Positions 6,761-16,050 of a stretch of DNA of 32,698 nucleotides are shown piece by piece. The notes below the pieces were generated by a model, which had not been told where the DNA came from, did not search any database, and worked only from the letters and a program-made list of their open reading frames with translations. The DNA is from a virus. Location: the IMG/VR virus record IMGVR_UViG_3300032087_002722, positions 1 through 32,698 of that record; one strand, 5' to 3'. The number at the start of each line of letters is the position of its first letter. Within the stretch, counting starts at the first letter, position 1. The position numbers and the translations under genes were made by a program.

Positions 6761-7501
6761 TTATGTCAATCCTTCTGACAAAATGTTAAATGCTGTTGCC
6801 GCCACTTGAGGAACCTGTCCATTCCCAATGGCTTTAAGTCTGTCCAGCCTTTTATCCACCCCATGAGTTTTTCCGAAAAGCAGGGATTCAGCCAGCATTT
6901 CTTTTCGACTGGTATTCCAAGCTCGATCTTTATAGCCGATTCCATGTGTGGGCTGTTTCGCCGTCTTTCTGACGGGCAGTCTCCGGCTGTGTCCTTGCAT
7001 AGTGGTGTAGGCAAGTACCCACATCCTGTCTCGCTTGTGCGGCGCACCGATTGCCCCAGCTCCCAACACTCCCCATCGAGCATCATACCCCAGCGCGGCA
7101 AGGTCTCTGAGGACAACGCTGAGTCCGCGCGTCCGCAGTAGTGGGGAGTTTTCGGCGAAGACAAAACGAGGTCGCATCTCTCCAACGAGTCTCGCATATT
7201 CTTTCCATAAGCTTGAACGCTCTCCGGTAATTCCCGCTCCTTTACCTGCCGCACTAATGTCTTGGCAGGGGAATCCTCCGCAGAGGACGTCAACTGATCC
7301 GCGCCATGGATTTCCGTCGAGTGTAGCCACATCATCCCATATAGGGAAGTTGGGCAGGATTCTGTCTCGCTGTCTGGCAAGCAGGACGTTTCGCGGGTAG
7401 GGTTCAATCTCGCACGCTCCAACCGGATTGTGTCCAAGTAGGACGTCAGCGAGAATGCCTCCTCCTGCCCCTGCAAAGAGGTGGAATGTGTTGTATGCCA
7501 T
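6761..7501 (-). CDS. DNA (cytosine-5) methyltransferase, compact
   Basis: This 246-residue enzyme is predicted to transfer a methyl group from SAM to cytosine C5 in phage DNA, probably to evade restriction. The C5-MTase motifs appear in order: motif I FAGAGGG (9-15), a motif II acidic residue E31, the catalytic motif IV GGFPCQ with C79, motif VI ENS (117-119, normally ENV), motif VIII HKRDR (155-159) and motif X GNGQVPQVAA (226-235). Only about 55 residues lie between VIII and X, so the target-recognition domain is unusually small and the enzyme is shorter than typical members. The whole gene is overlapped on the same strand by another 246-codon frame offset by 5 nt. The start has no SD and lies 5 nt inside that second frame. 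Confidence 0.87.
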   Translation of the reverse strand: MAYNTFHLFAGAGGGILADVLLGHNPVGACEIEPYPRNVLLARQRDRILPNFPIWDDVATLDGNPWRGSVDVLCGGFPCQDISAAGKGAGITGERSSLWKEYARLVGEMRPRFVFAENSPLLRTRGLSVVLRDLAALGYDARWGVLGAGAIGAPHKRDRMWVLAYTTMQGHSRRLPVRKTAKQPTHGIGYKDRAWNTSRKEMLAESLLFGKTHGVDKRLDRLKAIGNGQVPQVAATAFNILSEGLT

Positions 7502-7506
7502 GTCAT
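6766..7506 (-). CDS. candidate overprinted gene fully overlapping the cytosine methyltransferase
   Basis: A second uninterrupted frame of 246 codons runs on the same strand as the methyltransferase. It starts 5 nt earlier and stops (TGA) 5 nt earlier. Its ATG directly follows the TAA of the 25-codon gene at 7507-7584, which favours re-initiation here. The protein is not low-complexity. It has Trp-rich segments such as LPRWGMMLDGECW and, near the end, LMGWIKGWTDLKPLGMDRF. I recall phage proteins annotated as methyltransferase-associated or hypothetical with the same signatures (SPAKT near the N-terminal half, RWGMM.GE, LPTP, GW..WTDLKPL). Parts of those motifs are frame-shifted images of conserved methyltransferase motifs, so conservation alone could be passive. 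No function is assigned. Confidence 0.5.
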   Translation of the reverse strand: MTWHTTHSTSLQGQEEAFSLTSYLDTIRLERARLNPTRETSCLPDSETESCPTSLYGMMWLHSTEIHGADQLTSSAEDSPAKTLVRQVKERELPESVQAYGKNMRDSLERCDLVLSSPKTPHYCGRADSALSSETLPRWGMMLDGECWELGQSVRRTSETGCGYLPTPLCKDTAGDCPSERRRNSPHMESAIKIELGIPVEKKCWLNPCFSEKLMGWIKGWTDLKPLGMDRFLKWRQQHLTFCQKD

Positions 7507-7584
7507 TTATTGGATGATTGATATTACGATTGCTGTGATTGCTATGGTGATTAGGATGATGTCGATGTTGTCTAGCATTCTCAT
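7507..7584 (-). CDS. 25-residue hydrophobic micropeptide between helicase and methyltransferase
   Basis: A short frame starts at an ATG that shares its A with the TAA of the primase-helicase (TAATG). It ends in a TAA that abuts the ATG of the overprinted frame. The product begins MRMLDNID and is then almost entirely Ile/Leu/Val/Ala/Thr, a single transmembrane-length segment. The tight coupling at both ends is the main evidence that it is translated. It could also be only a coupling device that carries ribosomes into the methyltransferase pair. Confidence 0.45.
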   Translation of the reverse strand: MRMLDNIDIILITIAITAIVISIIQ

Positions 7585-15687: not shown

Positions 15688-16050
15688 CTATACTAAATAA
15701 CCGAATGCTCTTGCCCACTTGGCTCCGTAATAGACTTCGTTTGTTCCGCAGATTTCAGACCACTCTCGGTAGAATCCGGAGTCTTCTGGCATTCGTCGAG
15801 TTGCTCCGAAGTGGATCTTGGAGTGATGGCACTCGCGACATACCGAAAGCCAAGTGCTGACATCGTTCGTTCGAGTTCCTCTTCCGCACTTGTGATGCAC
15901 GTCCGTAGCTCGGCGGGGTCTTGGATATCCTTCGCCGAGACACACTTGGCAAGTTGGATTCTCCGTAAGAAATTCAGTTCTGAGTTTTCGGTATTCATCG
16001 TTCTGTTTTTGTTTACGTTTTGATACTCTTCGTAGTGGTGATCGTTTCAT
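15688..16050 (-). CDS. HNH endonuclease
   Basis: This 120-residue protein has a basic N-terminus (MKRSPLRRVSKRKQKQ) and a zinc-bound HNH core: C34/C37 in CQVC, HH of TDVHHKCGRG (52-53), C71/C74 in CREC, and HHSKIH (75-80). This is the common small phage HNH nuclease. It lies directly upstream of a second, unrelated HNH gene. It could be a homing-type nuclease or a DNA-processing enzyme; terminase-associated HNH proteins are usually next to terminase, which this is not. Confidence 0.85.
   Translation of the reverse strand: MKRSPLRRVSKRKQKQNDEYRKLRTEFLTENPTCQVCLGEGYPRPRRATDVHHKCGRGTRTNDVSTWLSVCRECHHSKIHFGATRRMPEDSGFYREWSEICGTNEVYYGAKWARAFGYLV

Follow-up and report, generated by a model that had tools for sequence, protein, structure and literature searches.

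A fully overlapping pair of reading frames in phages as a putative split C5-cytosine methyltransferase

Several C5-cytosine methyltransferases consist of two polypeptides, M.EaeI among them, and Lee et al. are said to have reported in 1995 that the small subunit of M.EcoHK31I is encoded in another frame within the large-subunit gene. In M.EcoHK31I, motifs I-VIII and X lie on the large polypeptide, where the target-recognition domain (TRD) is also predicted, and motif IX lies on the small one; in M.AquI, the other two-polypeptide enzyme compared here, motifs I-VIII lie on alpha and IX-X on beta (PMC3404938). Here we describe a viral locus that, judged from its sequence and that of its relatives, is very probably a C5-methyltransferase split into alpha and beta like M.EcoHK31I and M.AquI, with the two genes in full overlap and the beta frame supplying the enzyme's missing half. 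Matched by motif description, the pair resembles M.EcoHK31I in having motifs I-VIII and X on the large subunit and motif IX assigned to a second polypeptide. Unlike M.EcoHK31I, it is phage-borne with no restriction gene in the immediate neighbourhood, its TRD is assigned to beta rather than to alpha, its overlap extends over 246 codons with starts 5 nt apart, and the phage beta can carry several TRD modules. It shares with M.AquI the natural splitting of a C5 methyltransferase, but here the alpha frame again includes motif X, and the overlap of the genes is complete. Two-polypeptide C5 enzymes are already known; no published account of this phage arrangement was found in the literature searched, and searches of E. 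coli and of plasmids turned up only prophage-like or other pairs.

The window, by which we mean the whole stretch of DNA analysed, comes from a virus record and is 32,698 bases long. It carries tail, terminase and capsid genes as well as genes for ribonucleotide reductase and a primase-helicase; these latter two enclose the overlap, which is on the minus strand. As a preliminary description of this DNA had stated, and as the list of open reading frames bears out, two nearly coincident same-strand frames of 246 codons each are found there, both with ATG starts: P1 (7501-6761), here called alpha, and P2 (7506-6766), here called beta, in the +1 frame of P1. The same description was right that the second frame starts at the stop of a micro-gene, the beta ATG following directly on the TAA of a 25-codon ORF, and translational coupling between the two is possible; calling P2 Trp-rich was too strong for a handful of Trp among 246 residues. 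The features of the locus are as follows.

6761-7501, minus strand: alpha (P1), 246 aa, C5-cytosine methyltransferase frame with motifs I-VIII and X, without IX
6766-7506, minus strand: beta (P2), 246 aa, overprinted, +1 relative to alpha; phrog_1008 at 1.9e-16
7004-7492, minus strand: alpha catalytic core, motifs I-VIII (P1 aa 4-166); frame 1 dNN/dSN 0.15-0.18
7262-7276, minus strand: alpha motif IV, GFPCQ (P1 76-80), with the expected catalytic Cys79
6809-6844, minus strand: alpha motif X, DRLKAIGNGQVP (P1 220-231); phrog_1008 290-319 matched in the P1 frame
7015-7311, minus strand: beta core domain (P2 aa 66-164), SPAKT...PRWGMMLDGECWEL...; phrog_1008 32-153
6892-7014, minus strand: putative beta TRD module (P2 aa 165-205), LPTP...; frame 2 constrained, frame 1 neutral
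6841-6891, minus strand: beta motif IX-like helix, LNPCFSEKLMGWIKGWT (P2 206-222); phrog_1008 263-282; dNN/dNS 0.29
7336-7506, minus strand: beta N-terminal leader (P2 aa 1-57); amino-acid neutral, though most relatives keep it open
7499-7506, minus strand: paired starts ATGacATG, with the beta ATG at 7506-7504 and the alpha ATG at 7501-7499
7507-7584, minus strand: 25-aa hydrophobic ORF from the ORF list, its TAA abutting the beta ATG

Elsewhere in the window a second overlapping ORF pair with nearly coincident 3' ends (15688-16050 and 15693-15998, minus strand) consists of an HNH endonuclease and a 101-codon ORF without a match.

P1 is a C5-cytosine methyltransferase (PF00145 at 4e-29, phrog_363 at 1e-63), and a profile built from its relatives matches HhaI at 4e-31. 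It has the catalytic domain of PF00145, motifs I-VIII with PCQ, and its Pfam match covers only residues 4-172, corresponding to positions 2-168 of the 324 in the profile, and ends at motif VIII. Motifs I-VIII and X are common to the P1 relatives; when motif IX was looked for between VIII and X in these relatives, nothing similar was found. The earlier view that one frame holds all the C5-methyltransferase motifs fails on this point, P1 being without motif IX. In PF00145 a single polypeptide carries, after VIII and before X, a TRD and motif IX; neither is present in P1, and both are assigned to P2, which also goes against the earlier picture of a separate frame-2 protein laid over a complete enzyme.

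The database search of the second frame that had been proposed gave a divided answer: phrog_1008 ('DNA methyltransferase') matched at 1.9e-16, but no Pfam or NCBIfam family did, and a P2 profile found nothing meaningful among PDB sequences. The phrog_1008 profile matches the window in relay, with positions 32-153 and 263-282 in the P2 frame and then 290-319 in the P1 frame. Relatives of P2 share the core, mostly one to five 'PTP' modules, and the motif LNPxWVEWLMGWPxGW; P2 itself has PTP modules and LNPxxxExLMGWxxxW, whose in-frame counterparts between VIII and X in related single-frame methyltransferases are the TRD and motif IX. Moonbeam-type mycobacteriophage enzymes, for example, carry P2-like modules and FPEWMMGWPAGW in frame between VIII and X, and hhalign aligns P2 159-226 with this region at 96.5% (E 7.8e-10). 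Because this profile comparison aligns exactly the modules and FPEWMMGWPAGW, the C-terminal third of P2 probably comprises the TRD and motif IX. Motif IX most likely lies in beta, as assigned by position and by profile and weak sequence likeness rather than by structure; hhalign of P2 against canonical enzymes did not pick up motif IX, and the phmmer alignment of Moonbeam with HhaI motif IX is not significant alone. An AF2 model of P2 alone, made with 27 relatives, was poor (mean pLDDT 53), an outcome that fits a subunit needing its partner to fold but that by itself gives no support. The AF2 model of a fused relative was confident in the catalytic domain and the IX/X end and not in the TRD, and its PDB matches confirm the fold of a C5 methyltransferase along its whole length (HhaI, Z 22) while being silent on the TRD.

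Relatives were collected through P1 (55 viral contigs) and through P2 alone (six in one search, the best 80 of at least 313 in another); with annotated phages and plasmids included, the set holds 165 loci, of which 130 fall below 85% P1 identity. Both frames are open together in more than 100 diverged relatives. As a null model, the synonymous codons of the methyltransferase were shuffled with protein and codon usage fixed, which predicts about 3-10 stops per locus in the +1 frame; almost every relative is free of them throughout the overlap. Across 124 representatives (<85% identity), stops stood at 0.06 against 1.20 expected opposite codons 56-110 and at 0.01 against 1.39 opposite codons 110-163. 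All 27 loci picked by P1 only, a set not biased towards P2, were without stops over codons 56-163, where 3.7 were expected. The reverse view agrees: alpha lies in the -1 frame in 80/80 of the best 80 of at least 313 loci found with beta patterns, and with beta residues fixed, alpha has no stops through the TRD in 122/122 loci, 2.48 being expected in each. Intact methyltransferases with many frame-2 stops, named in the preliminary description as the finding that would speak against overprinting, are absent from the window's family; they occur, by and large, only among the Moonbeam-type fused enzymes, in which TRD and IX have moved into frame 1. At five loci (L059, L061, L062, L064 and L119) alpha and beta change frame at one shared point, which is the pattern that a sequencing error or a disabling indel would leave.

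Substitutions were classed per frame in the manner of OLGenie over 66 disjoint pairs; the bootstrapped units are these pairs, which have ancestry in common. As control, the virtual +1 frame was taken in 15 flanking genes and gave 0.85 (0.72-0.98), a value near the control meaning no frame-2 constraint. The beta dNN/dNS was 0.86 over P1 codons 1-60, 0.67 over 60-165, 0.45 in the TRD after motif VIII and 0.29 in the stretch holding LNPxxxExLMGW (motif IX), and within the beta core the frame-2 constraint climbs from about codon 109. The alpha dNN/dSN was 0.15-0.18 over codons 1-165, 1.03 (0.91-1.14) in the TRD and 0.26 at motif X. Because a P2-guided alignment could favour P2, the TRD was also aligned as nucleotides blind to frame in 18 pairs, and the answer was the same and stronger: 0.09 (0.06-0.12) for beta and 1.09 for alpha, with changes altering P1 only at 45% of sites and changes altering P2 at 5-6%. 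From these frame-blind ratios, P1 is a neutral passenger in the TRD region, yet one that is kept readable. Selection changes frame along the gene, acting on frame 1 in motifs I-VIII, on frame 2 in the TRD and on both frames at the IX/X end. A small TRD due to a double coding load, as had been suggested, finds no support in this pattern, for frame 1 has no constrained TRD (dNN/dSN 1.03-1.09). The proposed check of synonymous constraint came out positive, methyltransferase synonymous divergence (codons 1-165) being 0.287 against 0.587 in flanking genes and lower in 15/15 pairs, a gap to which mosaicism may contribute in pairs with a less conserved flank protein.

The start codons carry a signal of their own. 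In one clade alpha starts ATG-AAT-GAG, and the AAT creates the beta ATG at +4; this second codon is AAT in 37/37 representatives, where the rest of the same genes have AAC 186 times and AAT 141 times (43% AAT), giving a probability of ~3e-14 if the loci were independent and a less extreme one given their shared ancestry. In the window's clade the beta ATG stands 5 nt upstream of that of alpha (ATGacATG), as seen in 19 representatives including the window. The beta start codon is under selection, and we infer that a single ribosome landing site serves both starts. Given the absence of the stops predicted from shuffled codons, the halved synonymous divergence of the methyltransferase and the conserved beta start, chance is excluded as an explanation of the overprint; frame 2 stays open more than chance allows and, given frame 1, is under purifying selection, as an overprinted gene should be. 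The same-strand overprinted gene first described is upheld, and is conserved among relatives, by the openness of frame 2 beyond the shuffle expectation, the excess constraint on methyltransferase-synonymous sites and the conserved beta start. The words 'full length' hold for that start, selected beside the alpha start, but not for amino-acid constraint over the first ~55 P2 residues, which are neutral (0.86 vs control 0.85) and look like a translated yet unconstrained leader. A stop count opposite codons 3-30 had suggested that the beta N-terminus was absent, a result that reversed once the TGA that the alpha start creates in the beta frame (aTGAATG) was left out.

The pair could work as follows. 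Frame 1, alpha, would bind SAM, catalyse the reaction with motifs I-VIII and contribute motif X; frame 2, beta, in the +1 register, would provide target recognition via one or more 'PTP' modules, along with motif IX. With starts 4-5 nt apart, both frames would be opened from one ribosome landing site, the stretch coding for the beta TRD giving alpha a neutral linker on its way to motif X and beta traversing the alpha motif region to reach the TRD and IX. Joined as a single enzyme, alpha and beta would then methylate the DNA of the phage, probably as protection from host restriction. The sequences show that both frames are open, that selection changes frame, which motifs each frame holds and that the beta start is conserved; translation of both frames, heterodimerisation, the need for both subunits, the DNA target and the biological role are inferred.

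Monomeric C5 methyltransferases of Firmicute prophages also carry an overprinted relative of the beta core, a ~145-aa +1 ORF with sharp borders opposite codons ~50-193. In 80/80 relatives of one such enzyme (L200-L279, e.g. L220:1847-2356), a sample seeded by a P2-found locus and so giving no prevalence among all such enzymes, there are 0 +1 stops opposite codons 56-190, with stops on both sides at or above expectation. The frame-2 ratio in the monomeric enzymes is 0.41 and 0.33 inside the core ORF and 0.75-0.79 downstream. Their +1 proteins form a family of their own, phrog_16143; S. thermophilus phage P0095 has them annotated. Both phrog_1008, which matches P2, and phrog_16143, the short Firmicute-phage form, are beta-type families under the name 'DNA methyltransferase', an annotation silent on overprinting and on the missing catalytic motifs. 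Since the monomeric enzymes are already complete, the core must do something further in them, and because it is conserved there too, the beta core may have a role beyond carrying the TRD and IX. Perhaps, and we hold the chances to be even, the core is an old domain that was born inside the +1 frame of C5-methyltransferase motifs IV-VIII and has stayed locked to it across phages of many hosts, a scaffold for interchangeable TRD arrays in split enzymes with a second function in monomeric ones. If so, it would be among the most widespread same-strand overprinted genes of bacterial viruses, mostly unannotated.

The presence of the core in complete enzymes is the main point against the view of beta as a specificity half only. 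An independent overprinted protein, such as a regulator, inhibitor or chaperone of the methyltransferase, would fit the ~145-aa +1 ORF kept in 80/80 sampled Firmicute-prophage enzymes that already have motifs I-X in frame 1. We nevertheless think it improbable: in the window's family alpha lacks IX and is neutral in the TRD, beta carries the PTP modules and IX that are in frame in fused relatives, and an unrelated protein leaves this division of motifs between the frames unexplained. The order in which the constrained segments follow one another (frame 1, frame 2, frame 1) is also what a double frameshift would read, and phrog_1008 has IX and X joined in one frame, so that one might think of a single polypeptide made by programmed ribosomal frameshifting, +1 after VIII into TRD/IX and back for X. 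This is very unlikely; frameshifting would make superfluous a beta frame that is open and gaining constraint upstream of any shift site, a selected start for beta and an alpha frame kept stop-free through the TRD. Moreover, IX and X overlap in the window DNA, so that a ribosome shifting backwards could not translate the whole of each.

We give next to no credence to a frame 2 without coding function, left open only because the methyltransferase is conserved and codon usage is biased. On inspection, frame-1 motifs do limit the +1 residues (GFPCQDI, for instance, yields [DAGV][SF][PLHR][AV][KR][TI]), but the stops predicted from synonymous shuffles are absent, frame-1-synonymous changes are suppressed, the TRD is conserved in frame 2 and not in frame 1, and the beta start shows AAT in 37/37 cases, data that already contradict such a reading.

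A double-coded methyltransferase gene is widespread in phages, usually with only one of its two proteins annotated. Interpreted as an overlapping split enzyme, it would make sense of odd labels in phage records (paired 'DNA methylase' genes, 'internal gene', 'may be inactive'), the proteins concerned being the two parts of a single enzyme. Many annotated phage methyltransferases would then be missing, in the annotation, the half that gives specificity, one of the frames having been dropped by the gene caller, so that cloning the annotated gene alone would be expected to fail. The locus is furthermore a natural system in which selection passes between reading frames along a gene with sharp borders, and a potential test bed for enzyme splitting through frame change and for swaps of target specificity in a double-coded gene.

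Other phages arrange the same parts differently. In the Streptomyces phages Samy, phiBT1 and Heather, which are arranged as M.AquI, alpha ends after VIII and beta holds modules, IX and X in one frame; in Samy, gp50 has the phrog_1008 segments in one open frame, and the adjoining gp49 extends no further than motif VIII. In Catdawg the overlap of genes 6 and 5 measures 209 nt, and in Paenibacillus phage Shelly beta lies inside alpha, its gp56 carrying the note 'g55 internal gene'. Both frames are annotated as methyltransferase, without explanation, in Shelly (gp55/gp56) and in Streptococcus phage P0095 (gp50/gp51). Modules, IX and X are fused in the alpha frame of Moonbeam, PFR2 and prophi104-2; the Moonbeam-type loci (L168-L199) have LLPTP arrays in frame, and their +1 frame opposite codons 56-163 is mostly no longer kept open. 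Gene 9.1 of Streptomyces phage phiBT1 (L161) bears the label 'DNA methylase may be inactive'; the modules, IX and X that it lacks sit in the unannotated frame downstream. In Stenotrophomonas phage SOVA965 (L152) the CDS annotated 'DNA-cytosine methyltransferase' is the beta frame, the catalytic alpha being unannotated, and in Lactococcus phage 4268 the annotated 186-aa methylase orf14 (L281:1305-1862) apparently ends after VIII and has a beta-like +1 frame over it.
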